A DNA stretch of 64,000 nt from an uncultured Desulfobacteraceae bacterium. Its GTDB lineage: Bacteria; Desulfobacterota; Desulfobacteria; Desulfobacterales; UBA5852. Of this stretch, positions 9,066 to 63,957 are shown one piece after another. The notes below the pieces were generated by a model. The model ran no database searches. It was not told where the DNA came from and saw only the letters and a list, made by a program, of their open reading frames with translations. The position numbers and the translations under genes were made by a program. Positions within the stretch are counted from its first letter, which is position 1; every line of letters begins with the position of its first letter. The stretch covers positions 186,001 to 250,000 of the forward strand of contig CAJXSL010000006.1 in NCBI GenBank assembly GCA_913060875.1, written 5' to 3'.

Positions 9066-10769
9066 TCAAGGGGAGAGCATTAGGTCGTGGATATCGAAAG
9101 CGGGGAAATTTTCCGGTCGGATATTGACAAATTCCGGCACCAGGCAGGCACGATTGGGAGAACTGAAGCGGGACAACAGCACCGGAACGGTTGAATTTCC
9201 CTGGGCATCGATGTGCGTTAAAAAGAGTTGAGTATAGGGCGTGTTGACCTTGGATGAAAACACAAGCCATTTGCTGTTTGGTGACCAGCTGTGCCAGGAG
9301 TTCATTATTGGCGTGTTGCAGGTCAGAACACGTGCTTTCCCGCCGGCCGCCGGGACGATGCAGAGCCGGCTGGAGGGTTGGATGGCCAGTCCGGTATCGC
9401 TCTGGGTGAAGACAATCCATTTGCCGTCGGGGGAATAGCGGGGAAAGTAATTGCTTTTGCCGTTGGCGCTTGCCCCTGCTAAAGGGACGGCATTTCCGCC
9501 TTGGCCGTTATTGAACGGCACCGTGTAGAGATCGTAGCGGATCTGGTATTGGCGGTTCAGATCCTCGATCCGGACATCCGGGGCAATGGTGAGATACCCC
9601 TTGTCCCCAATGACTTCGATCAACCGCGGGTCATGTTTTGCCCGGGCAAAAACGATGGTTCGGCCATCCGGATGCCATGCGGGACAAGTCTGCACATGAT
9701 CGGATAGATCGGCGCCGGGCAATGCAAAAAAACGGTTGTCTTTACGGCTGTAGCAGGCAATCACACCTTTGATGGGGAAGAAAAGCTGGGAATAGTCGAT
9801 ATCGGGAATCATTGTAAAGAAGGATGTTTCCCTCACAGTGCTCAACACGGTGTTTCTGTCGGGTGAGATTTGGGAGAACAGGCCCAAGTTTGCATTGTGT
9901 TCCGAACCTGGGAAATCGTTCCAGGTGATAAAATTTTCAGGCGAGATTTTTAAAGCATCGTCAAAATCTGTCAGGAGATAGGCACCTTTGTCTCCGTTGA
10001 TGTCCATATCCATGCCGAACAGCTTGGCGTCCGGAGAAAATCCATGGCAGTTTCCACAAACGGGAAGGTTTTCCATGACAACGGGGGGAGGGGCATAGGC
10101 GGCAATATCGCCGAGACGCCATTGGGACAATTCCGGATGCCGGGCGGCGTAGGCGAAGGGCAGGGGTATGTGCTGGAAAAACAAGGGGGCCGACACAGGA
10201 TCGGTCGAAACGCCTATGGAGACGAAGTTCCGGGAAACGATGTGGGGCGTTTTTCCCATGGACACACCGTAAACGGTGATGCGCGTCGGGTTTTCAATGG
10301 CTCTGGATTTGATTTTTTCCCAGGATTTTCGGTCGGGTGTCCAGGACATCTGGTCCGTCAGCATGCAGACCACGCCTTCATGAGTGGCAAAAGAAACACA
10401 GACCAGCCAAATTTGACCCCGGGTGTCTTCCCAGGTGATTTCGGGCGATGCCATGTCTTTGGGAAAGACAGCGCCGTGATAAGGGGTGAGAATGTCCAGT
10501 TCCGGCAAATGTTCCGCAGGTCCGGCTTCGTCCAGGAGGTTGTGGACGAGTTGGCCTGCCTCTTCCGGTTCGAGGGTCGGAAGGAGGCTTTCCCGGAATC
10601 GGTAGAGAGAGTCCGTCGTCTCGAGGTCGGTACTGTGGCCAAAGGTGCAGGCCAATACCATCATGACGGCCGTCAGGCACACCGACCAAATTATTCTGCT
10701 TGCCGCCAAGGCGAATTTGAGTTTTTTAGCGGCTAATCCGGTTACTGGAGGCGATGACTGGAGATGCAT
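9066..10769 (-). CDS. Exported PD40 beta-propeller protein with one CxxCH haem motif
   Basis: 567 aa. A hydrophobic segment near residues 22-42 (ending in a Cys) looks like a signal peptide or lipoprotein signal. A single CGNCH motif near residue 240 is a candidate c-type haem site. The C-terminal half has TolB/WD40-like (PD40) repeats with the typical cores HPDGRTIVFA, SPDGKWIVFT and SPNSKWLVFS. The role is unknown; PD40 propellers often bind proteins or glycans in the periplasm. Its start lies inside the end of the upstream lipoprotein gene (28-base overlap), so the two are probably co-translated. The haem assignment rests on the motif alone. Confidence 0.6.
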   Translation of the reverse strand: MHLQSSPPVTGLAAKKLKFALAASRIIWSVCLTAVMMVLACTFGHSTDLETTDSLYRFRESLLPTLEPEEAGQLVHNLLDEAGPAEHLPELDILTPYHGAVFPKDMASPEITWEDTRGQIWLVCVSFATHEGVVCMLTDQMSWTPDRKSWEKIKSRAIENPTRITVYGVSMGKTPHIVSRNFVSIGVSTDPVSAPLFFQHIPLPFAYAARHPELSQWRLGDIAAYAPPPVVMENLPVCGNCHGFSPDAKLFGMDMDINGDKGAYLLTDFDDALKISPENFITWNDFPGSEHNANLGLFSQISPDRNTVLSTVRETSFFTMIPDIDYSQLFFPIKGVIACYSRKDNRFFALPGADLSDHVQTCPAWHPDGRTIVFARAKHDPRLIEVIGDKGYLTIAPDVRIEDLNRQYQIRYDLYTVPFNNGQGGNAVPLAGASANGKSNYFPRYSPDGKWIVFTQSDTGLAIQPSSRLCIVPAAGGKARVLTCNTPIMNSWHSWSPNSKWLVFSSKVNTPYTQLFLTHIDAQGNSTVPVLLSRFSSPNRACLVPEFVNIRPENFPAFDIHDLMLSP

Positions 10770-11776
10770 CGTCTGGTCCGGCCGTCCTTGATAAAGGTGT
10801 TCAGATACAGGGCCCCTGTCGAAGCCTTGTCAATCGTAAACGTCTCCACTACCACAGGCCATTTTCCGGGGGCGGCATGCCATTGCTGCCCGGCCGTGCC
10901 GGATGATTTTTTTTGATAGCTGCCGATTCTCAGACAGATCGGTTTATGGGGATCGACCCGGTCGAAGAAATACACAAAGGCCACAAAACCAGTGCCTTCG
11001 GCGGCCAAACGGGCAAATGTTTTCGGGTCCACCGCATGTTGTTTGACCGTCTCAAGGCTTTCAAAGCCGTTGTAGAACTGGTCAGGGCTTTTGTCGACAA
11101 CGATTTTGGGCACCACGTAAGCCGCATGGCGGGGTGTTGACGGGTAGACGATTTCACTGGTGAGGCTGTGAACATCGATAACGGTTGATTCCCGGCCCAT
11201 GCATCCGGCCGTCTTAGGACCGAAAATACCGTCCGGTGTCAGGCTGCAATCTCTCTGGATCTCCTTTAGAAAGCCACTGAATGCGGCTTTTTCAATGGGA
11301 GACAATCGGTTCATGTTTCTTCGGTTGATATACGTTCCAATTTTTTGTGCAATGGCTGAAGCTTCTTCGGGATTAGGCGATCTGATCTGGTAGGCAATCC
11401 GGTCGTCCCTTAGGTCGATCCGGCCCATTCGGTCAGCGGCCTCCATCAGCATGCGTTGGCTGAAAACGCCCTCCGAGTCTATGTTCGCCTCCATAATGAC
11501 GATGTTTTGATCGATCCATTCATGGCTGTTGTCCCAATTTTCAATCTCGATGGACGAAGGCGTGGTGGTGATATAGGGGGAGACGGGGAGGGCTGCTTGT
11601 TTGGCCAATCGATCCAATTGGATGGCCAGCGATGATATCGGCGCAAGGTCCGATGCGTTCTGCGAGACGTAATCTTCGGGCGATGAAACGAACGAAATCG
11701 AAGGGCCATTTTTCACGCAGCCGGCGACCGTAATTATCATAAGGCAGAAACCCGCAATGATCAGATGTTTATTCAT
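10742..11776 (-). CDS. Predicted lipoprotein with a peptidoglycan-binding-like segment
   Basis: 344 aa from the ATG at 11776 (MNKHLII; preceded by AGGAGC), not the further upstream frame start. A lipobox ITVAGC lies near residue 20, so it is probably lipid-anchored. Residues around 170-195 (SLTPDGIFGPKTAGC) resemble the repeat core of PG_binding_1 domains. The rest matches no family I recognise. It overlaps the beta-propeller gene by 28 bases and follows the secreted protein gene at 11911, suggesting a three-gene exported-protein group. Confidence 0.55.
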   Translation of the reverse strand: MNKHLIIAGFCLMIITVAGCVKNGPSISFVSSPEDYVSQNASDLAPISSLAIQLDRLAKQAALPVSPYITTTPSSIEIENWDNSHEWIDQNIVIMEANIDSEGVFSQRMLMEAADRMGRIDLRDDRIAYQIRSPNPEEASAIAQKIGTYINRRNMNRLSPIEKAAFSGFLKEIQRDCSLTPDGIFGPKTAGCMGRESTVIDVHSLTSEIVYPSTPRHAAYVVPKIVVDKSPDQFYNGFESLETVKQHAVDPKTFARLAAEGTGFVAFVYFFDRVDPHKPICLRIGSYQKKSSGTAGQQWHAAPGKWPVVVETFTIDKASTGALYLNTFIKDGRTRRCISSHRLQ

Positions 11777-11910
11777 GAGGTGCTCCTTAGATAGTATCCA
11801 GATCAACGATAGATCGAATGTTAATGCGAATAAATATAAAAAGTGATGGGTTGACGACTATCGAACATACGATGATGCATGGATAGGGTTGTTGCTTTAT
11901 GACCGATTCT
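11777..11910. other. AT-rich intergenic region
   Basis: 134 bases, noticeably AT-rich, between two minus-strand genes. It probably holds the promoter of the lipoprotein gene, but no element is clear enough to name. Confidence 0.3.
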
Positions 11911-12588
11911 TCAATACCCAAAAAACTTTTTTAGCCCTTTGTTTATTTGATCGGAAACGATTTCAACATCCGACTTCCCTTGGTTCTCTTTTTTGTTTTT
12001 GATTCGATTCCATTTATTTTTTAACCCGGCGCTAATTGCCGCCGCTTCGATATCCGATGCCGATCCCCCATTTCGATGGGCTTTGGACACAGCATTAAAG
12101 ATGTTTATGAAATCGTTAGCCTTTTCGTTTTGCTTTTGGTTTCGTGCCTCCAAGGAGGATGATGACGAAGTCTTGGACGGTTTGGCTGGAGGATTCTTAA
12201 TTTGATTAAGTTTTTTAATGGCTTGGGGGGATAATTTGATGCCTACCCTTTGGGCCCATTCCAGTTGTTCCTTGACTTGTTGAGGGGTGTATTTTCCGCC
12301 ATCGAGACCTTGCAGCAACTCCGCTTCGGCATCTTCTACCGCCTTGTCCGGTTGGTAGGGGCCTTGCTGAATGTTTTCGGGACGGCCATCCCAGATGGAG
12401 GATCCCATGACATCGGCGCCATTGGGGTTGGGGGCCCAACTGACACCGCCACTGGCCTGGGGTTCCATCGATGCAAATGCGTCGGTACCCTCGCTCCCTC
12501 CACCCCCATAACCGACAACCGTCGACGGAACGCAGAAACAGACGAGCAGTAAACTGATAAACATAATTTGGGCGGTCGTTTTGGGCAT
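11911..12588 (-). CDS. Secreted protein of unknown function
   Basis: 225 aa. An N-terminal signal peptide (hydrophobic core ISLLLVCFCVPSTVVG) is followed by a Gly/Ser-rich low-complexity stretch, a central charged helical region, a Ser-rich linker and a Lys/Asn-rich C-terminus. AGGAGG lies just upstream of the ATG. Codon use is AT-richer than in the flanking genes, consistent with an accessory or recently acquired gene. I do not recognise a family. Confidence 0.5.
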   Translation of the reverse strand: MPKTTAQIMFISLLLVCFCVPSTVVGYGGGGSEGTDAFASMEPQASGGVSWAPNPNGADVMGSSIWDGRPENIQQGPYQPDKAVEDAEAELLQGLDGGKYTPQQVKEQLEWAQRVGIKLSPQAIKKLNQIKNPPAKPSKTSSSSSLEARNQKQNEKANDFINIFNAVSKAHRNGGSASDIEAAAISAGLKNKWNRIKNKKENQGKSDVEIVSDQINKGLKKFFGY

Positions 12589-54965: not shown

Positions 54966-55109
54966 CGTGCTCCTGACAATGGCCGCGGACAGGGTCGCCT
55001 GTTGTGGCGTGAATCAACGGAACCCCCTGCTGTCGATCAGCGCCGGTTACAGCCGGCCGCAACAAGGCGGCTGTTCTGGCAAAGTGGAACGGAGCTTTTG
55101 AATACGGTA

Positions 55110-56837
55110 ATGTCCCCGGAAGATACCCGCCCGCCCTTACCGCCGCTTGTCGCCCTTTCCATCGGTGTTGTCGCCGTTTCAACGGGCGCTATTTTTGTGC
55201 GGCTGGCCGAAGCCCCGGCTTTGGTCACCGCCGCCTACCGGGTGGGCATTGCCAGTTTGGTTTTACTGCCCCTGGTCTGGTGTTACGCCCGTGAAGAATT
55301 GTTCACTTTAAAGGGCAAGGATGTCGGGTTGGCAGCCATCGCCGGTGGTTTTCTGGCCCTGCACTTTGCAACCTGGATTGCATCGCTGGACCATACCTCG
55401 GTGGCCAACAGCGTTATTCTGGTCAATACCAACCCGTTATGGGTTGGCCTGATGGCCCCCATGATGACCCGGGATCGGGTTGGTCGCGGCACCATCATCT
55501 GCATCCTGATCAGTGTCGCCGGCGCAATGATTATTGGTTGGGGCGATATCGCGACCGGCGGCAATGCGCTATGGGGGGACGCACTGGCGCTGATGGGAAG
55601 TATTTTTGCGGCGGTATACCTGCTGATGGGACGTAACCTGCGTTCACGGCTCAGTCTGGTGGTCTATATTTTCCTGTGCTACGGAAGTGCCGCCGTATTT
55701 CTTTGGGGGACAGTGGTGATCAGCGGGTTGCCGGTGAGCGGATTCAGTGGGACCACCTGGGGGGCGTTTGCCGGCATGGCCCTGTTTTCGCAACTGGTTG
55801 GGCATACCAGCTACAATTGGGCCCTGAAGTGGTTGAGCACCAGTACGGTGGCCGTTAGTCTGCTGGGGGAACCTATCGGTGCCAGCCTTATGGCGTTCTT
55901 TTTTTTCAATGAAGACTTGACCGCGCCGAAGTTTATCGGCGGTGGTTTAATTCTCATGGCGATTTACCTGGCCGCTCGACTCGAGGGCCGCTCGACTCGA
56001 GGGCCGCTCGACCTGAGACAACCTGACCAAATGGAGGCAAGGATGACGTACGAGAATATCAATTTCGAGATCGAGGATCGCATCGCAATCATTACGTTCA
56101 ACCGGCCGAAAGCCCTCAATGCGTTGAATCGCGCGCTGCTGGATGAATTCGCGGATGCCGTCGACCGGGTCGCAATGGATGAAACGGTGCGTGTCCTGGT
56201 GCTGACCGGAAGCGGGGACAAAGCCTTTGTGGCCGGCGCCGACATCACGGAAATCAATCAATTGGGCCCCTTGGGGGGCAAATATTTCGCCCGCCGTGGC
56301 CTGGAGGCCATCAATCGATTGCCCCAAATCCCGGTACCGGTGATCGCGGCCGTCAACGGGTATGCCCTGGGCGGCGGCACCGAGATGGCCCTGGCCTGCG
56401 ATTTCATCTATGCCGCCGAAAGCGCCACCTTCGGTCTGCCGGAGATCAACCTGGGGATTATCCCCGGCTTTGGTGGGACCCAACGGCTGTCCCGCCTCAT
56501 TGGTCCCAATATGGCCCGTGAAATGATCTATACCGGTAAAATGATCGATGCGGCGGAAGCATTTCGTCTGGGAATCGTCAATAAGGTATGTGCACCGGAT
56601 CAATTGATGACCGCTGCCTTGAAAACGGCCGCTGTCATGGCCACCAAGGGCCGAGTGGCCCTGCGTGCCGCCAAACAGGCCATTACCAACGGACTGAATG
56701 TCGACCTGACATCCGGTTTGGCTCTGGAAAACGATGCGTTTGCGCTCTGTCTGGCCAGTGCCGATGCCCGTGAAGGGACCAGTGCTTTCCTCGAAAAACG
56801 CAAGCCGGAATTCAAAGGGACGCTGGCGGACGATTAA
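55110..56837 (+). CDS. EamA-family transporter joined in frame to enoyl-CoA hydratase
   Basis: One open frame of 575 aa. Residues 1-295 are a drug/metabolite transporter of about ten membrane helices with two EamA repeats (GFLALHFATWIASLDHTSVANSVI; LVGHTSYNWALKWLSTSTVAVSLLGEPIGA). The rest is a crotonase. The fusion passes through a 16-bp tandem repeat at 55971-56012 in which each copy shifts the frame. With one copy fewer or two fewer the transporter would end at a TGA before the hydratase, so the join may be a recent expansion or an assembly error. I treat the hydratase as a separate gene with its own RBS (56043-56837). ATG 55110 is the most likely start. Confidence 0.6.
   Translation: MSPEDTRPPLPPLVALSIGVVAVSTGAIFVRLAEAPALVTAAYRVGIASLVLLPLVWCYAREELFTLKGKDVGLAAIAGGFLALHFATWIASLDHTSVANSVILVNTNPLWVGLMAPMMTRDRVGRGTIICILISVAGAMIIGWGDIATGGNALWGDALALMGSIFAAVYLLMGRNLRSRLSLVVYIFLCYGSAAVFLWGTVVISGLPVSGFSGTTWGAFAGMALFSQLVGHTSYNWALKWLSTSTVAVSLLGEPIGASLMAFFFFNEDLTAPKFIGGGLILMAIYLAARLEGRSTRGPLDLRQPDQMEARMTYENINFEIEDRIAIITFNRPKALNALNRALLDEFADAVDRVAMDETVRVLVLTGSGDKAFVAGADITEINQLGPLGGKYFARRGLEAINRLPQIPVPVIAAVNGYALGGGTEMALACDFIYAAESATFGLPEINLGIIPGFGGTQRLSRLIGPNMAREMIYTGKMIDAAEAFRLGIVNKVCAPDQLMTAALKTAAVMATKGRVALRAAKQAITNGLNVDLTSGLALENDAFALCLASADAREGTSAFLEKRKPEFKGTLADD
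55971..56012 (+). repeat. 16-bp tandem repeat at the transporter-hydratase junction
   Basis: Two full copies of GCCGCTCGACTCGAGG (55971-55986 and 55987-56002) and a partial third GCCGCTCGAC (56003-56012). Because 16 is not a multiple of three, copy number controls whether the transporter frame reaches the hydratase. Slippage or recombination could switch this. Confidence 0.9.
56043..56837 (+). CDS. Enoyl-CoA hydratase/isomerase (crotonase)
   Basis: 264 aa from ATG at 56043, with GGAGG 5 bases upstream; this internal signal supports independent translation. Crotonase fold: AFVAGADITEI (oxyanion hole), EMALACDFIYAAESATFGLPEINLGIIPGFGGTQRL (catalytic Glu pair region). Hydrates trans-2-enoyl-CoA in beta-oxidation or related pathways. 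Its frame is the same as the upstream transporter because of the repeat at 55971-56012. Confidence 0.88.
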   Translation: MTYENINFEIEDRIAIITFNRPKALNALNRALLDEFADAVDRVAMDETVRVLVLTGSGDKAFVAGADITEINQLGPLGGKYFARRGLEAINRLPQIPVPVIAAVNGYALGGGTEMALACDFIYAAESATFGLPEINLGIIPGFGGTQRLSRLIGPNMAREMIYTGKMIDAAEAFRLGIVNKVCAPDQLMTAALKTAAVMATKGRVALRAAKQAITNGLNVDLTSGLALENDAFALCLASADAREGTSAFLEKRKPEFKGTLADD

Positions 56838-57031
56838 CCGGCATGCGCGTGCCTGATTCGCAAACGTCCCCCCGGAAAGGCCTCGGGCCCGTCGAACCGC
56901 ATGGCCTGTTTAATCCCGTAAAGGCCTTTGCCGGAAAAGGCCTCCGGGGGAGGATATCGCTTTTCGCTTGACAGGACGGGTGTCATTCGTTATGCAATCA
57001 GGCACAAGATGATTTAGGAGAAAAACAAGCA
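56838..57031. other. Gap between hydratase and leader peptide, with promoter
   Basis: 194 bases. Contains an inverted repeat GGCCTTT-GCCGGA-AAAGGCC near 56927 and the leader promoter at 56968-56996. Confidence 0.4.
56968..56996 (+). promoter_or_regulatory. Sigma-70-type promoter of the paaK-liv operon leader
   Basis: TTGACA at 56968-56973 (exact consensus) and TATGCA at 56991-56996, spacer 17 bases. Transcription should begin near 57003, about 30 bases before the leader peptide ATG. Confidence 0.6.
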
Positions 57032-57118
57032 ATGCTTTTCGGTAATGTCTATTTTTATTTTTTCGGTTTTTTTGGGGGCTTTCTCTTTAGAAAGTCCACC
57101 CATGAGCCGTCAACGTAG
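57032..57118 (+). CDS. Phe/Tyr-rich leader peptide (candidate attenuator peptide)
   Basis: 28-codon frame starting ATG 57032 with AGGAG 11 bases upstream and stop TAG at 57116. Eight of residues 3-19 are Phe and two are Tyr (core YFYFFGFFGGFLF). Such codon runs are typical of leader peptides (PheL type) whose translation speed reads aminoacyl-tRNA supply. Two intrinsic terminators follow, then the aryl-CoA ligase operon. Short length means it could be coincidence, but promoter, RBS, aromatic bias and terminators all lie in the right order. Confidence 0.6.
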   Translation: MLFGNVYFYFFGFFGGFLFRKSTHEPST

Positions 57119-57141
57119 ATATACCGACCAACGCGATTGAC

Positions 57142-57183
57142 AAGACCATGGGGGGACGCAAGGGGTCAACCCATGGTCTTTTT
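57142..57183 (+). terminator. Intrinsic terminator 1 after the Phe/Tyr leader
   Basis: AAGACCATGGG at 57142-57152 pairs perfectly with CCCATGGTCTT at 57170-57180, followed by TTT. The loop is 17 bases and includes GTCAA, which is complementary to TTGAC at 57137-57141. GTCAA also occurs at 57109-57113, just before the leader stop. These short complements would permit rival foldings, as in an attenuator. Confidence 0.7.
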
Positions 57184-57190
57184 ATTATAG

Positions 57191-57223
57191 GCTGCGGGTT
57201 TGTCACCCGGCAGCTTTTTTTTT
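57191..57223 (+). terminator. Intrinsic terminator 2 ahead of paaK
   Basis: GCTGCGGGT (57191-57199) pairs with ACCC and GCAGC (57205-57214) with one bulged G, loop TTGTC, followed by nine T residues. Together with terminator 1 it lies between the leader peptide and the paaK start. Confidence 0.75.
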
Positions 57224-57302
57224 GGCCGTGCCTTGAAACAACGTTCCTCGCCAAACTCACTTTTCTTTTTGCCAGACCCGTTCGATAAGGAGGATGACGC
57301 GC

Positions 57303-58604
57303 ATGATCTACGACATCGAGTATGAAACCATGCCCCGGGAGGCTTTAGAAGCCATCCAGTTGCGCCGATTGAAGGCAACCATCGATCGCTGCTATGCCAG
57401 CGTGCCCTTCTATCGGAAAAAATTTGAAGCAGCCGGCATCACGCCCGGGGATATCCAGAGCTTGAAAGACCTGCAGCGGTTGCCCTTCACGACCAAACAG
57501 GATCTGCGGGACAACTATCCTTTTGGCATGTTTGCCGTGCCCATGGAAAACGTCGTCCGCATTCATGCGTCTTCCGGAACCACCGGTCAACCCACCGTTG
57601 TGGGATACACGGCACGGGATGTGGATACCTGGGCCGGGTTGATGGCCCGCTCCCTGATGGCCGGCGGCGCGTCCCGAGGAGATATCATCCACAATGCCTA
57701 CGGTTACGGACTGTTCACCGGGGGATTGGGGGCACACTACGGCGCTGAAAAACTGGGGGCCTCGGTCATTCCCGTCTCGGGGGGGAATACCAAACGCCAA
57801 GTGGTGATCATGCGGGATTTCGGTCCCACCATTCTTACCGCAACCCCGTCCTATGCCCTGCATCTCGCCGAAGTCGCCGAAGAGTTGGGCGTCTCTTTCC
57901 GGGACCTGAATTTTAAATACGGTATTTTCGGCGCGGAACCCTGGTCGGAAAAAATGCGTGGTGAGATCGAAGAGAAGTTGGGATTGGTGGCCGTCGATAT
58001 TTATGGTCTCAGTGAAGTCATCGGGCCTGGTGTGGCCATGGAATGCCATGAAGCCAAAAACGGGTTACACATTTTTGAAGACCACTTTATCCCGGAGATT
58101 ATCAATCCGGAAACCGGCGAAGTCCTGCCCTACGGGGAAATCGGAGAATTGGTGTTTACCTCCATCACCAAGGAGGCTTTCCCTGTTCTTCGCTACCGCA
58201 CCCGCGATATCACGTCCTTGAACCCGGAACCCTGTATTTGCGGCCGGACGGTGGTTCGCATGAACAAGGTGAGCGGTCGTTCCGACGACATGCTGATCAT
58301 CCGGGGTGTCAATGTCTTCCCCTCCCAGATCGAAAGCGTTTTGATGGAAATGCAGAACGTCGAACCCCATTATCAACTGGTGGTGGACAGGGAAGGGCAG
58401 TTGGACATCCTGACCGTCATGGTCGAAGTATCCGAAGCCATGTTTTCCGATGAGGTGAAGACGCTCCAGGGCATGGAGCGGGAAATTACCAAAAACATCA
58501 AGGAATACCTCGGTGTATCCGCCAAGGTTAAACTGGTGGAGCCGAAAGCGATCGCGCGCAGCCAGGGGAAAGCCGTGCGGGTTATCGACAATCGAAACAT
58601 TTAG
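57303..58604 (+). CDS. Phenylacetate-CoA ligase (PaaK family)
   Basis: 433 aa from ATG at 57303; AAGGAGG lies 9 bases upstream, so the ATG at 57294 is less likely. Converts an aryl acid such as phenylacetate with ATP and CoA to the CoA thioester. Adenylate motif [16 protein letters not shown], the [16 protein letters not shown] substrate loop, and the C-terminal [16 protein letters not shown] hinge. In sulfate reducers such ligases sit with aryl-pyruvate oxidation and amino-acid transport genes; here an ACT protein and Liv transporter follow. The exact acid is not certain. Confidence 0.93.
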
Positions 58605-58614
58605 GGAGGCAAGC

Positions 58615-59046
58615 ATGCGAGCAGAACAAATATCCGTCTTTCTCGAAAATAAAGCCGGTCGTTTGTGTGAAGTGACGGGCATTCTCGCTGAGGCACACGT
58701 CAATATCCGGGCCCTGGCATTGGCCGACACGTCGGATTTCGGCGTATTGCGGTTGATTGTGGATGACACCGATAAAGCCAAGGAAGCGCTGAAGAAGGCG
58801 GGCTTCACCGTGGGTAAAACCAATGTCCTGGCCGTGGAAGTTCCCGATCGTCCGGGAGGCCTTCATGAAATTCTCGATTTTCTCCAGTCTTCCCATATCA
58901 ATGTCGAATACATGTATGCCTTCGTGCAGCAGACGGGCAACAATGCCGTCATGATTTTCCGTTTCGACAATACAGATGAAGCCCTGAGGGTTATTCAGGA
59001 AAAAGGCTTGCGGGTCATCGACGGGAAAACCCTGTACGGTATGTAG
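58615..59046 (+). CDS. Tandem ACT-domain protein
   Basis: 143 aa from ATG at 58615 with GGGAGG upstream. Two ACT domains (about 1-65 and 68-140: EQISVFLENKAGRLCEVTG; LAVEVPDRPGGLHEILDFL). ACT domains bind amino acids and regulate metabolism. It lies 10 bases after paaK, a common pairing, and may report aromatic or branched-chain amino acid level to the ligase. Confidence 0.85.
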   Translation: MRAEQISVFLENKAGRLCEVTGILAEAHVNIRALALADTSDFGVLRLIVDDTDKAKEALKKAGFTVGKTNVLAVEVPDRPGGLHEILDFLQSSHINVEYMYAFVQQTGNNAVMIFRFDNTDEALRVIQEKGLRVIDGKTLYGM

Positions 59047-59170
59047 CCCGTCGTCGGGTGTGCCATTTGCCTGACCTTGATTTTTGGCCGGAAGAACCAG
59101 AGGAACCGAATGAAACCTTGAATCTCACCGGATCAACCGGTGGCAACCGACCATGATGAAGGAGGTCAAA

Positions 59171-60343
59171 ATGACGATCAAGCGACACGGACGCAAGATC
59201 GCCCTGTGGGCGGTGATGGTCCTGGCCATCACGGGGATGCTGCTGCCGGCATCTCTGTATGCCGCGCAAACCTACAAGATTGGCGCCATCCTGGCCGTCA
59301 CCGGACCGGCCTCGTTTCTGGGTGGCCCGGAAGCGCGCACGCTGGAAATGCTGGTGGATCAAACCAATGCCGCCGGTGGGATCAACGGCCAAAAAATCGA
59401 ACTGATTATCAAAGATTCCGGCGGCAATCCGGAGAAGGCGATTTCCTTTGCCAAGCAGCTCATCGAAGAAGAGAAGGTCCTCGCGGTCATCGGGCCATCC
59501 ACCTCCGGCGAGACCATGAAAATCAAAAAGATTTTCGAACAGGCCGGCACCACGCTGATTTCCTGCGCCGCGGCCGAGGTGATTGTCAACCCGGTGGCCC
59601 AATACGTTTTCAAGACTCCGCAAAAGGACTCCTTCGCCGCCCAAAAAATTTTCCAGACCATGAAGGCCATGGGCATTTCCAAGATCGCCGTGCTGGCCGG
59701 CAATACAGGCTTTGGCAAGGCCGGTAAGGCGCAGCTGTTGAAAATCGCGCCTGAGATGGGTATCGAAGTGGTCGCGACGGAAGTCTATGACAAACAATCC
59801 AAGGACCTGTCGGCCGTTGTGGCCAAAATCAAGGCCAACAAAGACGTCCAGGCCGTGGTCAACTGGTCCATCGTTCCGGCCCAGGCCATTGTGGCCAAGA
59901 ACATGCGCCAGGCCGGATGGGACGTGCCCCTGTTCCAGAGCCATGGATTCGGCAATATCAAGTATGTCGAGGCGGCCGGGGCGGCCGCTGAAGGCATAAT
60001 CTTCCCCTGCGGTCGATTGCTGGTGGCGGATCAGCTCCCGGATGGCCATCCCCAAAAGGCGTTGCTGGTGGATTACATCGCCGGCTACGAGAAAAAATAC
60101 CAGGAGACCGCATCCGCCTTCGGCGGGTACGCCTACGATGCCTTTATTATCCTTGAGGCCGCCATGGAAAAGGCGGGTATGGACCCGGCCAAGATTCGCG
60201 ACGAGATCGAGAAGATCCAAAATCTTCCCGGAACGTCCGGGGTTTTCAGTTTTTCGCCCCAGGACCACAATGGTCTCGATATCGACTCCTTTGAAATGAT
60301 AACCGTCAAGGACGGTAAGTTCGTTCCCTACAAGGGGATGTAG
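59171..60343 (+). CDS. LivK-like ABC transporter amino-acid-binding protein
   Basis: 390 aa from ATG at 59171, with GGAGG 5 bases upstream. Signal peptide (residues about 10-35, cleavage after YAA). Periplasmic binding fold type I: YKIGAILAVTGPASFLGGPEARTLEMLVDQTNAAGGINGQ is shared by branched-chain amino acid binders (cited only as a family pattern). Captures an amino acid for the downstream permease. Aromatic or branched-chain ligands are both plausible. Confidence 0.9.
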   Translation: MTIKRHGRKIALWAVMVLAITGMLLPASLYAAQTYKIGAILAVTGPASFLGGPEARTLEMLVDQTNAAGGINGQKIELIIKDSGGNPEKAISFAKQLIEEEKVLAVIGPSTSGETMKIKKIFEQAGTTLISCAAAEVIVNPVAQYVFKTPQKDSFAAQKIFQTMKAMGISKIAVLAGNTGFGKAGKAQLLKIAPEMGIEVVATEVYDKQSKDLSAVVAKIKANKDVQAVVNWSIVPAQAIVAKNMRQAGWDVPLFQSHGFGNIKYVEAAGAAAEGIIFPCGRLLVADQLPDGHPQKALLVDYIAGYEKKYQETASAFGGYAYDAFIILEAAMEKAGMDPAKIRDEIEKIQNLPGTSGVFSFSPQDHNGLDIDSFEMITVKDGKFVPYKGM

Positions 60344-60480: not shown

Positions 60481-61371
60481 ATGACAGCGGAACTCTTTGT
60501 CCAATATCTGTTTGCCGGCATTACCTATGGCGCGATCTATGCCATCGTGGCCATCGGCTTCAATATCATTTACAATGCCACCGGCATTATCAATTTCGCC
60601 CAGGGTGAATTTGTCATGCTGGGCGGAATGATCTCCATTACGCTGCTGCCCATAATGCCGCTATGGCTTGCCATCACAACGGCCGTGATGCTCACCATGG
60701 TGTTCGGCGCCTTGCTGGAGATCTGTTTTATCCGCTGGCTGGAGAATCCCAGCGTCTTGCGGATGATCATCATCACCATCGGCTTGTCCATCCTGACCCG
60801 CGAGGCCGCTTTGCATATCTGGGGAGAATCCATTCGCTCGCTACCGTATTTCATTGGCGACGAGGTGATGACGGTGGCCCTGTTCGGCGCGCGGATATCG
60901 CCCCAGGTTCTCTGGGTGATCGGTGCCTGCGGACTGATGGTCATCGGGCTGAATATTTTTTTCCAAACCACTTCGGTGGGAAGGGAAATGCGCGCCTGCG
61001 CCGCCAACCGCAGGGCGGCTCTGCTCTGCGGGATCAATACCCGCAACATGGTGACGCTTTCGTTTATGCTCAGTGCCGGCATCGGGGCGCTGGCCGGATG
61101 CGTCATGTCACCCATTACGTCCACTCAGTACGATATCGGCACGGGACTGGCGATCAAAGGGTTTACCGTCGCCATTCTGGGCGGGCTCGGCAATGCCATG
61201 GCCGCCGTGGGGGCGGGGCTTCTCCTCGGCATCCTCGAAGCATTTTCGGTTTCCGTCCTGCCGCTGGCCTTCAAGGATGCCATTGCCATTGCCATTTTGC
61301 TGTTGATCCTTTTCTTCAGGCCGCACGGCCTTTTCGGCTCCCGCACGGCCGCCGGGTTGAAGGAGTTCTGA
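60481..61371 (+). CDS. LivH-like branched-chain amino acid permease
   Basis: 296 aa, about eight to nine membrane helices. LivH/LivM family signature GFNIIYNATGIINFAQGEFVMLGG at the N-terminus and AACAANRRAALLCGIN with EAA-like loop in the middle. One half of the membrane channel of the transporter. It follows the livK hairpin and stops 2 bases before livM. Confidence 0.92.
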   Translation: MTAELFVQYLFAGITYGAIYAIVAIGFNIIYNATGIINFAQGEFVMLGGMISITLLPIMPLWLAITTAVMLTMVFGALLEICFIRWLENPSVLRMIIITIGLSILTREAALHIWGESIRSLPYFIGDEVMTVALFGARISPQVLWVIGACGLMVIGLNIFFQTTSVGREMRACAANRRAALLCGINTRNMVTLSFMLSAGIGALAGCVMSPITSTQYDIGTGLAIKGFTVAILGGLGNAMAAVGAGLLLGILEAFSVSVLPLAFKDAIAIAILLLILFFRPHGLFGSRTAAGLKEF

Positions 61372-61373
61372 CC

Positions 61374-62468
61374 ATGAAGAAGCTCTTTCCCCTGGCCGTG
61401 CTGGCGACCTTGATCATTGCCATTCAACTGATCACCGGATGGACCGACACCCGCTTTTACCTGACCCAGCTGACCATGTCGGCCTATTATGCCCTGCTGA
61501 TTATCGGCCTTTGTGTGGTGATGGGCTATGCCGGCCAGTTATCCCTTGGCCATGCCGGTTTTTTCGCCATCGGCGGGTACGTGTCGGCCGCCCTGACAAC
61601 CCGGAACCTTGAGGGGCTCAAGGACACGGTACTGATTCGATTATTTGACGGGTTGGGATTGCTCGTTGCGGGACAGGACATTTACGGCGATTCCCTGTTG
61701 GTGGTAACCCCATGGGCGGCCTGTCTGGCGGCGGTGTTGTGTGCCGGCGTCATTGCCTGGGTGCTCGGGATTCCGGTGCTGAAGCTCAAGGGGCACTACC
61801 TGGCCATGGCGACCCTGGGATTCGGGATTATCATCTATCGAATTGTGCTGGCCAGCGAGGTTTTCGGAGAGGCCGACGGCATTTCCGATGTCCCCTCATT
61901 TCCATTGCTGCCCGGGCTGTCGGTCAGCGGTGATTTCGGCGCCCGGGAGGAGAACTACTACATTGCCTGGGGATTGCTGATCATCGGTTTGGTTCTTCTG
62001 CGTAACCTGGTGGACAGTCGTGTCGGCCGGGCATTGCGCTCGATCCACGGCTCGGAAGAAGCCGCCGAAGCAACCGGAGTCGACACCGCCCGCTTCAAGC
62101 TGCAGGTCTTTGTGATTTCCGCCGTATACGCCGCCGTGGCCGGTGTCTTTCTGACCCACTACAACGGTGGTATCGGTCCCTCCGAAGCCGGTGTCATGAA
62201 ATCGGTGCGCTACGTGGCCATTGTTGCGGTGGGCGGCATGGCGCATCTCTGGGGCGCCATGGTGATGGGCATCGTGCTCAATTTTCTTTCCCTGCGCGGC
62301 GTGTTCGGCTCCTATGACGACGCCGTATTCGGATTCATATTGATTGCCATCATGTTGTTTGCACCGAACGGCATTTTGAGCTGGAACTGGCGGGGCTATG
62401 GCGCCATGCTGTTGCGGCGCGGCCGCCGGAGGGAGTCTTTGAGGGAGAAAACGGATGGCCTTGCTTGA
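61374..62468 (+). CDS. LivM-like branched-chain amino acid permease
   Basis: 364 aa from ATG at 61374, 2 bases after livH. A longer upstream frame is a shadow of livH. About ten helices; YALLIIGLCVVMGYAGQLSLGHAGFFAIGGYVSA at the N-terminus is typical LivM, and the EAA-like loop is near SIHGSEEAAEATGVD. It overlaps livG by 14 bases. Confidence 0.92.
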   Translation: MKKLFPLAVLATLIIAIQLITGWTDTRFYLTQLTMSAYYALLIIGLCVVMGYAGQLSLGHAGFFAIGGYVSAALTTRNLEGLKDTVLIRLFDGLGLLVAGQDIYGDSLLVVTPWAACLAAVLCAGVIAWVLGIPVLKLKGHYLAMATLGFGIIIYRIVLASEVFGEADGISDVPSFPLLPGLSVSGDFGAREENYYIAWGLLIIGLVLLRNLVDSRVGRALRSIHGSEEAAEATGVDTARFKLQVFVISAVYAAVAGVFLTHYNGGIGPSEAGVMKSVRYVAIVAVGGMAHLWGAMVMGIVLNFLSLRGVFGSYDDAVFGFILIAIMLFAPNGILSWNWRGYGAMLLRRGRRRESLREKTDGLA

Positions 62469-63210
62469 AATTTCCCGCCTGCACAAAAAATTCGGCGGTT
62501 TGCATGCCGTTAACGACGTTTCCTTCGGGGTCGCCCAAGGCAGCATCAAGGCGGTTATCGGGCCCAACGGGGCTGGAAAAACAACGCTTTTCAATCTGAT
62601 TGCGGGATCTCTGGCGGCAACATCCGGTCGGGTGCGCTTCAACGGGGAAGACATCCAGGGCCAGAAGCCCCACCAGATTGCCGCCTGCGGCATCGGCCGA
62701 ACATTCCAGAATATCAAGCTTTTCCACGATATGACCGCCCTGGAGAACGTCATGGTGGGCCGCCACCTGCGCAGCAGGGCCGGGTTTGTGGCCTCCATGC
62801 TGCACATGCCGTGGACCCTTAAAGAGGAAAAGCAGATCCGGGAAAAATCCCTGGAACTGCTGGAATTGCTCGAGATTGACGCCTATGCGGATGTGGAGGC
62901 CACCAGCCTGGCCTTCGGTCAACAGCGGGCCGTCGAGTTTGCCCGGGCCCTGGCGCTGGAGCCGACCCTTTTGCTGCTGGACGAACCGGCCGCCGGGCTG
63001 AATATGCAGGAAACAGCCGAAGTCAGCAAGCTGATTGCCCGGATTCGGGACTTGGGTATTACCGTCTTGCTTGTGGAGCACGACATGTCGTTGGTCATGG
63101 AAATTTCCGATGAAATCGTGGTTCTCAGCTTCGGCCAGAAACTCGCCGAGGACGTTCCGTCGGCCATTCAGAACAATACGGAAGTGATCAAGGTGTATCT
63201 AGGTGAGTGA
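62455..63210 (+). CDS. LivG-like ABC ATPase
   Basis: 251 aa. Walker A GPNGAGKTTLF, signature SLAFGQQRAVEFARAL (variant of LSYGQQR), Walker B LLLLDEPAAGLN, switch His in VEHDMSLVMEIS. Powers the LivHM channel. The start overlaps the livM end by 14 bases. Confidence 0.95.
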   Translation: MALLEISRLHKKFGGLHAVNDVSFGVAQGSIKAVIGPNGAGKTTLFNLIAGSLAATSGRVRFNGEDIQGQKPHQIAACGIGRTFQNIKLFHDMTALENVMVGRHLRSRAGFVASMLHMPWTLKEEKQIREKSLELLELLEIDAYADVEATSLAFGQQRAVEFARALALEPTLLLLDEPAAGLNMQETAEVSKLIARIRDLGITVLLVEHDMSLVMEISDEIVVLSFGQKLAEDVPSAIQNNTEVIKVYLGE

Positions 63211-63216
63211 GGCACG

Positions 63217-63957
63217 ATGCTGAAGATTCGAAATCTCCAGTCCGGCTATGGAAAGCTGAAAGTACTGAAAAATGTCTCCATGCACGTGGCCAAAGGGGAG
63301 ATCGTGACGATCATTGGGGCCAACGGTGCCGGCAAGACAACGCTGCTGTCCACCATATCCGGCTTGCTCCGGGCGACCGCGGGCGACATATTGTTTGAGG
63401 GACAAAATTTGTCTGCGCTGCCACCCCAGAAAATTCCCCCGCTCGGTTGCGTTCTGGTTCCGGAGGGGCGGCAGATTTTTGCCTCCCTGTCCGTAGAGGA
63501 AAATTTGATTCTGGGTGGACATCCCTTGAAAAAGACGGGTAAAAAGGAACTGCTCCGCCAGTTGGAGCGTCAGTACGCACTGTTTCCAATTTTAAAAGAG
63601 CGCCGTGACCAGTACGCCGGAACCCTTTCCGGTGGCGAGCAGCAGATGCTGGCCATGGGAAGAGCCCTGATGTCGAAACCCACCCTGATCATGATGGATG
63701 AACCGTCCACCGGGTTGGCGCCGCTGATCGTCCAGGATATATTCAAGGTTATTGTCAAGATGCGCGATGAGGGCAAAACCGTTTTACTGGTGGAGCAGAA
63801 CGCCCAGACTGCTCTTCAGGTGGCCGATCGGGGATATGTCTTGGAAACCGGAAAGGTGGTTCTTCAGGGCAAAGCCCATGAACTGCTAGAGGATGTAGAG
63901 GTCAAGCGCGCCTACCTCGGCAAGGATTATGGTGATTTTTATGACGGAAAATCCTGA
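63217..63957 (+). CDS. LivF-like ABC ATPase
   Basis: 246 aa. Walker A GANGAGKTTLL, signature LSGGEQQMLAMGRAL, Walker B LIMMDEPSTGLAP, switch region VEQNAQTAL. Second ATPase of the Liv transporter; 6 bases after livG. Confidence 0.95.
   Translation: MLKIRNLQSGYGKLKVLKNVSMHVAKGEIVTIIGANGAGKTTLLSTISGLLRATAGDILFEGQNLSALPPQKIPPLGCVLVPEGRQIFASLSVEENLILGGHPLKKTGKKELLRQLERQYALFPILKERRDQYAGTLSGGEQQMLAMGRALMSKPTLIMMDEPSTGLAPLIVQDIFKVIVKMRDEGKTVLLVEQNAQTALQVADRGYVLETGKVVLQGKAHELLEDVEVKRAYLGKDYGDFYDGKS

Follow-up and report, generated by a model that had tools for sequence, protein, structure and literature searches.

The leader of the E. coli pheA operon, pheL (Phe_leader in Rfam), encodes a Phe-rich peptide, and its RNA combines 1:2, 2:3 and 3:4 pairing with a U-tailed terminator. 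The Salmonella his operon leader is organized into six segments, A to F. In Firmicutes, leader-peptide attenuators have been predicted on his operons and/or hisZYX transporters (PMC9413887, in the part of that paper available), which is a precedent for placing an uptake operon under such control. In Methanococcus maripaludis, aromatic amino acids are obtained from aryl acids via indolepyruvate oxidoreductase (Porat et al. 2004, as cited in the available part of PMC4162585). Here we describe a leader in a 64,000-nucleotide stretch of DNA, called the window, from a 5.9 Mb Desulfobacteraceae genome. We read it, with a probability of roughly 0.85, as a ribosome-mediated transcription attenuator that would sense charged Phe-tRNA, with some contribution of Tyr, and control the operon paaK-ACT-livKHMGF. 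This call is made because codon conservation, covariation and regulon content agree.

The features of the locus are collected in Table 1. A promoter, an RBS, a 28-codon Phe/Tyr peptide, two terminators and paaK-ACT-livKHMGF had all been named in a preliminary description of this DNA, and each was found where it had been placed or close by. The leader peptide has 8 Phe and 2 Tyr within residues 3-19, which are the putative control codons. The main antiterminator in the window pairs GTCCACCCATG (57094-57104) with CATGGGGGGAC (57147-57157) and has a single internal mismatch, A57098 facing G57153. The short complements GTCAA (57109), TTGAC (57137) and GTCAA (57165), to which the preliminary description had attributed the competing pairings, are real and form a minor inner part of this helix, the main arms of which it had not named. 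A plain consensus scan of 56401-57900 found no sigma-70 promoter, where shuffles gave an expectation of 1.1, and a single terminator-like site, that of terminator 2, against 2.1 expected; it missed terminator 1. Thus the window sequence alone cannot separate leader elements from chance, and the proof is comparative. At the sequence level, the locus has what is looked for in an amino-acid attenuator, namely an ORF with control codons, mutually exclusive helices that have one segment in common, a terminator with a U-tract and an upstream promoter.

Table 1. Leader elements and operon genes, in window coordinates.
Feature	Position	Strand	Basis or detail
Promoter -35 hexamer TTGACA	56968..56973	+	sequence; promoter conservation in homologous leaders
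-10 element TATGCA, weak	56991-56996	+	17-nt spacer; only 3/6 consensus matches
RBS AGGAG of leader peptide	57016..57020	+	read from sequence
Leader peptide ORF MLFGNVYFYFFGFFGGFLFRKSTHEPST, 28 codons	57032..57118	+	frame-specific aromatic codons kept in relatives
Region 1:2 hairpin GGGCTTTC/GAAAGTCC, putative pause/protector stem in ORF	57076..57097	+	pairing in 27 relatives
Region 2, antiterminator 5' arm	57094..57105	+	2:3 pairing and covariation; codes for conserved K-S-x-H peptide end
Region 3, common to antiterminator (2:3) and terminator 1 (3:4)	57146..57157	+	covariation of both helices
Terminator 1 with U-rich tail	57142..57185	+	11-bp stem AAGACCATGGG/CCCATGGTCTT at 57142-57152/57170-57180
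Region 4, terminator 1 3' arm, complementary to region 5	57167..57178	+	4:5 pairing, folding
Terminator 2	57189..57223	+	region 5 57190-57199, region 6 57205-57216, nine T 57215-57223
paaK, phenylacetate-CoA-ligase-type, first gene after leader	57303..58604	+	PDB PaaK E 5.6e-158; TIGR02155 642.2 bits, narrowly below curated cut-off 646.3
ACT-domain-pair protein	58615..59046	+	PF19571 ACT_8
livK-type solute-binding protein	59153..60343	+	nearest solved relatives include aromatic-acid receptors
livH-type permease	60481..61371	+	above cut-off for PF02653, below it for the NCBIfam matches
livM-type permease	61374..62468	+	matches to the UrtC and LivM models, each below cut-off
livG-type ATPase	62455..63210	+	best model LivG, under cut-off
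livF-type ATPase	63217..63957	+	best model LivF, under cut-off

Judged by PaaK, the nearest named relatives of the genome are Desulfobacterales and 'Deltaproteobacteria' MAGs. Of 58 relative genomes searched for PaaK, 39 had a match at E <= 1e-150 and 30 of these matches were kept as loci, and a further 52 PaaK loci were taken from named genomes. After duplicates and three rows of other paaK paralogues were dropped, 75 distinct paaK upstream regions remained, five of which (L076, L078-L081) are distant, at 56-62% identity. Aromatic-rich short frames occur at the matching position in many relatives, for example MKIRFFYFCFFRFFSGFYFKKSTHGRAI and MRSRFFYFGFFSFLEGFFFRKSIHGLAR. A motif search requiring 9/12 complementarity in 2:3 picked 27 of the 75 regions for an alignment (A1), and the covariance model R1, built from these 27 paaK leaders, was run on the window and the 75 loci. 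Within its own genome the window leader was the sole R1 match (E = 1.8e-20).

Codon usage was counted in 56 distinct paaK/liv leaders, eight others having been dropped beforehand because their hairpins could not be placed by script; 46 of the 56 were set in register by the region-2 motif and the other 10 were left out. Within the 20 codons that precede region 2, aromatic codons made up 361 of 920 in frame (n=46); the two alternative frames gave 178 and 194, and base-shuffled leaders 162 +/- 10. Phe was encoded by TTT 223 times and by TTC 89 times in these 46 leaders, and since both codons are used, the conservation is not that of a plain T-tract. Codon -3 was Phe in all 46, and the conserved peptide end K/R-S-x-H-G, seen in many leaders, is what RNA region 2 encodes. 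A promoter scoring at least 9/12 was present upstream in 48 of the 56 homologous leaders, with 14.7 expected from shuffles.

Both helices that share region 3 show changes on both sides. The 2:3 consensus in A1 (n=27) is GTCTNCCCATGG with CCATGGGNAGAC, paired in 97.8% of cells, a percentage inflated by the selection of these leaders for complementarity, and 22 cells were changed on both sides; each value was matched in 0/500 shuffles. The double changes of 2:3 fall in 4 pairs (18/500 shuffles as high), and slid registers were 31-52% paired. In the same alignment 3:4 was paired in 94.3% of cells, with 15 cells changed on both sides (0/500 shuffles as high) that fall in 4 pairs (93/500 as high). 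Further standard pair types were no commoner than in shuffles for either helix (2:3, 137/500 as high; 3:4, 103/500). The 1:2 hairpin, paired in 69.4% of cells in the 27 relatives, is weaker than the other helices.

Folding of the region had been proposed in the preliminary description as a check on a pheL-like layout. Window RNA that stops short of region 4 adopts the 2:3 fold without help (-22.8 kcal/mol), and both terminators form when the RNA is free from 57130, as it would be with a ribosome at the stop codon masking region 2. The free RNA of 57086-57226 prefers the terminators, at -49.8 compared to -44.3 with 2:3 forced. Terminator 1 is thus thermodynamically favoured over 2:3, and control must be kinetic.

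The mechanism that we infer, including translation, stalling and the direction of control, would run as follows. Transcription would start from the TTGACA promoter, and the leader peptide would then be translated. When Phe-tRNA is scarce, the ribosome would stall on the Phe/Tyr run and mask region 1, so that the 2:3 antiterminator would form, terminator 1 would be blocked and the operon would be transcribed. When Phe is abundant, a ribosome at the stop codon would cover region 2, 3:4 would form and transcription would end. Terminator 2 would act as a backup to terminator 1. The most speculative step is that 2:3 pairing would free region 4 to pair with region 5, by which terminator 2 would be disarmed too.

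Terminator 2 is conserved in both classes of leader, paaK/liv and aro/trp, though it was not found in every row. Of 74 distinct leaders, 59 (45 paaK/liv and 14 aro/trp) could be anchored and were used to assess 4:5 pairing; the 15 others had unclear motifs and were dropped. In the 45 paaK/liv leaders 84.4% of cells were paired compared to 78.4% with permuted partners (0/2000), and at the four flanking positions beyond the terminator-1 stem core the values were 67.2% and 52.5% (0/2000). This signal persisted after thinning to 26 or 17 sequences, and slid registers gave 32-51% pairing over the whole helix and at most 60% at the flanking positions. The duplex energy in 39 paaK/liv leaders was -13.6 for native partners versus -11.9 +/- 0.3 for permuted ones. 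Double changes were about as many, or more, at slide +1 (28 vs 31 with 45 sequences; 15 vs 13 with 17), and since these counts do not depend on register, only the paired percentage of 4:5 is register-specific. The 14 aro/trp leaders gave no covariation signal for 4:5, and the duplex energy in 12 aro leaders gave none either (P 0.107).

With 2:3 forced in equilibrium folding, terminator 2 still formed in 35/42 paaK/liv and 10/14 aro/trp leaders (37/44 and 10/14 with an alternative region-2 finder), and 4:5 formed in 7/42 and 4/14. When the RNA ended before region 6, 4:5 formed in 41/42 paaK/liv and 14/14 aro/trp leaders. In the window, the relay was seen with 2:3 forced on 57086-57226 and not on the fragment used for the survey of relatives, and it is therefore not robust. 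A kinetic six-segment relay via 4:5, for which equilibrium folding was mostly unsupportive, is a tentative proposal that we lean slightly against. The competing explanation is that terminator 2 serves purely as a backup, with partial read-through by RNA polymerase. A further point against the relay is that the 4:5 complementarity may stem from a mere likeness of the two hairpins.

At E <= 1e-5, R1 matched upstream of paaK in 36 of the 75 distinct regions. The preliminary description had asked for conserved Phe-rich leaders ahead of paaK-liv in relatives and had taken their absence from relatives with this operon as evidence against its proposal. These 36 have the leader; the other 39 lack an upstream match at that threshold, ten of them with livK downstream, which speaks in part against the proposal. 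Among these ten, L049 has a weak match (E 0.057) and L064 has livK at a distance of 5.3 kb. Another weak match was found in L028 (E 0.34), and in L063 and L068 the match lies downstream of paaK. ECH, the enoyl-CoA hydratase gene that ends at 56837 upstream of the window leader, was found upstream in 31/39 leaderless versus 24/36 leader-bearing regions, and paaK started within 150 bp of it in 21/39 versus 0/36. livK was found downstream in 10/39 leaderless versus 28/36 leader-bearing regions, many of the loci being short. Separately, just upstream of paaK in Desulfocicer vacuolatum (L077) there are near-repeats of CTGCCCGTGGCAG-like motifs without a model match, perhaps a decayed or rearranged attenuator.

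In a quick tree of 91 PaaK rows (58 with leader and 33 without, the weak matches L028 and L049 being counted as without), the leader label needs 17 changes compared to a shuffled mean of 27. At least 5 changes are forced by well-supported branches, and the deep rows are mostly leader-bearing, with the bias that rows from model searches were found via their leaders. In our reading, the leader may be of old origin with scattered, repeated loss, since it also occurs well outside the order, and the tree count is no proof of this.

R1 matched 43 of 146 genomes of the order (E <= 0.01) and 60 of 395 sampled genomes of the phylum (E <= 0.001), two samples that share some genomes. From the listed matches, a subset of 82 (37 from the order set and 45 from the phylum set) was classed by as many as five genes immediately downstream. 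The leader preceded paaK in 27 cases, liv in 2, aromatic-amino-acid biosynthesis genes in 49 and trpE-trpG in 1, with none or unrelated genes in 3, so that 79/82 were relevant. Two of the 27 paaK matches, L141 and L145, duplicate model rows (L082 and L071), and L175 was classed as paaK despite an intervening unidentified frame. Relevant genes are absent downstream of L126 and L187, both judged false matches, and of L124, which lies at a contig end. The gene sets of the biosynthesis class are ADH synthase/DHQ synthase II/PheA/AroA or DAHP synthase/AroB/PheA, and leaders of the aro class, such as MRNFSGRYFYYFRYYFYNTGLPKVR, have many Tyr, Phe and Trp residues. A family search on five aro reference genes and the L063 fusion put DAHP synthase, ADH synthase, DHQ synthase II and prephenate dehydratase above their cut-offs and TrpE below its own (511.7 vs 517.7); AroA, AroE, AroB and TrpG were named by eye. 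A Trp-type leader ahead of trpE-trpG, MINIKIQNNWWWQIQIFGFANGTN in L127 (G134), was also picked up by the paaK leader model.

The window's own genome has further such leaders. Its aroF-pheA is preceded by a Phe leader, MRQHNNITGEFFGRFFFGFRSVHPAS, with two hairpins after it. A second DAHP synthase (L210) stands behind a Trp-type leader, MSVKNQIQFCWWWWQFKREGCACRN, after which come two terminator-like hairpins, so that the tandem layout is seen again in a Trp-type leader of this genome. ADH synthase was not found there; the leader-bearing aroF and pheA were. G017 has paaK-ACT on one contig and liv on another, each with its own Phe leader; the 7.6 kb downstream of paaK-ACT contain no liv, and the roughly 3.3 kb upstream of liv contain no paaK. 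G084 looks alike: its liv has a Phe leader, with no paaK over about 6 kb upstream of it, and a Phe leader also precedes paaK-ACT, on a contig that breaks off about 0.7 kb past ACT. The order in Desulfamplus L063 is ECH-paaK-ACT-Phe leader-aroF.pheA fusion. There, at 10237-12252, DAHP synthase and prephenate dehydratase are fused in one 671-aa frame behind the Phe leader. The frame-specific codons, the covariation of 2:3 and 3:4, the anatomy and these aro/pheA matches together uphold the proposal of a pheL-like amino-acid attenuator.

Relatives of LivK were taken by sequence and by fold, at 26-28% identity. The fold search used a structure predicted from 35 sequences (pLDDT 92); a single-sequence model (pLDDT 46.6) was discarded. 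The top structure was 7ylt (Z 45.6, title uninformative), and 3sg0, 4dqd (a 3-phenylpyruvic acid complex by title, Z 44.0) and 4f8j (p-coumarate, Z 43.2) were also near. Branched-chain receptors scored 40.5 (streptococcal LivJ, 4gnr, only about 3.5 Z below 4dqd) and 34.1 (2liv). The comparison suggests an aromatic ligand for LivK, the exact compound being left unnamed at 26-28% identity. The substrate of the Liv-type transporter is likely to be aromatic rather than Leu/Ile/Val, because the best solved relatives of LivK include aromatic-acid receptors and because two liv operons separate from paaK (L116 and L118) carry their own Phe leader. That the transporter carries Phe or Tyr, as first proposed, may be too narrow, since the cargo may include aromatic acids (arylacetate, arylpyruvate) besides Phe/Tyr.

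Two further frames flank these genes. After livF, from about 63944 to past 64000 (945-2213 in L033), there is a second PaaK-like gene, with a PF00501 match below cut-off and no C-terminal AMP-binding domain reported in the domain search. It may be a ligase that has diverged or lost its activity, and L060 has a similar gene next after livF. Upstream of the leader, a 611-aa frame (55002-56837) runs from an EamA-type transporter, named by eye, into ECH with no intervening stop, the ECH start ATG lying inside it at 56043, which may be a fusion or a chance absence of a stop.

The operon had been called uptake/catabolic and not biosynthetic. The uptake half, of aromatic compounds, is likely; 'catabolic' is doubtful, because the attenuator logic would switch the operon on under Phe-tRNA shortage, because the same model finds aro/pheA and because of the L063 arrangement. 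We think it probable, on balance, that the operon serves the acquisition or salvage of aromatic amino acids and not catabolism. Salvage could possibly proceed from arylacetate to arylacetyl-CoA, to arylpyruvate and to the amino acid via indolepyruvate:ferredoxin oxidoreductase, a route that we infer, as iorAB, of which iorA was sought as an operon neighbour, are absent from paaK-ACT-livKHMGF. The alpha subunit gene iorA (TIGR03336) had matches in 30/30 relatives, over cut-off in 27/30, and in the own genome it was over cut-off in two places, both on other contigs. In G008 and G013, a paaK paralogue of 54-55% identity lies 0.7-0.8 kb from iorA. Given the M. maripaludis precedent, as far as it is available through PMC4162585, together with iorA, a Phe-starvation switch on PaaK and on a probable aromatic importer would fit salvage or acquisition.

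An alternative that keeps the attenuator is that the operon is nevertheless catabolic and is kept silent outside starvation for some physiological reason of another kind. A phenylacetate-CoA ligase gene does lie next to an acyl-CoA gene, ECH, and the two lie close together in many leaderless genomes. However, induction by the absence of its own substrate would be useless to such an operon, paaK-ACT precedes leader-aroF.pheA in Desulfamplus L063, and ACT domains typify amino-acid-regulated biosynthetic enzymes, so we regard this alternative as improbable. It is quite improbable that the leader acts like tnaC, with an excess of Phe or aromatic acid acting through the nascent peptide to stall the ribosome and induce a catabolic operon. 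PaaK is classically a catabolic enzyme, LivK resembles aromatic-acid receptors and the Phe at codon -3 is invariant (46/46), but the many Phe/Tyr codons come in varying order, and besides codon -3 the most constant part of the peptide, K-S-x-H, is an RNA pairing arm. Moreover, identical architecture stands ahead of biosynthetic aro/pheA operons, and stalling early in the ORF would yield antitermination, which is starvation logic. That the hairpins are constitutive terminators of ECH, with a T-rich spacer reading as Phe by chance and the operon promoter further downstream, would agree with ECH ending upstream at 56837, with Phe arising from a T-rich tract by composition and with the plain scan finding no sigma-70 match, but is most improbable in view of a frame-specific aromatic enrichment beyond base composition with TTC/TAC in use, antiterminator covariation, a TTGACA promoter conserved upstream of the leader, and leaders of the same family ahead of aro operons.

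Under the attenuator reading, an operon otherwise read as catabolic with a branched-chain transporter becomes a probable member of a Phe-starvation regulon that recurs in the phylum. Where a pathway can run either way, the sequence offers few clues to its direction, and regulatory logic is one of them; from a Phe-tRNA switch, acquisition or synthesis rather than breakdown is predicted. In its widest form, the reading would be that many Desulfobacterota make or scavenge Phe from aryl acids with an aromatic-acid ABC importer, PaaK and indolepyruvate:ferredoxin-oxidoreductase, under a new double-terminator Phe-tRNA attenuator with a 2:3 to 4:5 relay. We consider it unlikely that all of this holds jointly; if it did, the operon would be misannotated throughout the lineage, both as 'phenylacetate catabolism' and as 'branched-chain transporter'. 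Two ideas are made testable, that sulfate reducers take Phe from phenylacetate and that one anti-termination decision disarms two serial terminators.

Rfam covariance models at default and relaxed thresholds returned no attenuator family, Phe_leader included, the best being suhB at 13.8 against a 41-bit cut-off. No paper on this leader element was found among open-access papers, most subscription papers being outside that scope, and the available part of the main text of PMC2965389 does not mention Desulf- or phenylalanine. Judged by these models and by the R1 matches, the leader family matches no Rfam family and recurs across the phylum, and the kind of attenuator itself is already known. Like E. 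coli pheL, the leader combines a Phe-rich peptide with 1:2/2:3/3:4 pairing and a U-tailed terminator; unlike pheL, it has paaK-ACT-liv as its target, two tandem terminator hairpins and another sequence and lineage. With the Salmonella his leader it shares a possible chain of 1:2, 3:4 and 5:6 versus 2:3 and 4:5, but here 3:4 and 5:6 are both intrinsic-terminator-like and 4:5 is only suggested. The Firmicutes his/hisZYX attenuators likewise cover amino-acid uptake genes, whereas theirs concern histidine and, in the available part of PMC9413887, come without an acyl-CoA ligase. The aryl-acid route of M. maripaludis (PMC4162585, available part) would account for an arylacetate-CoA ligase being switched on when Phe runs short, although that system is archaeal and here iorAB lie outside the operon.
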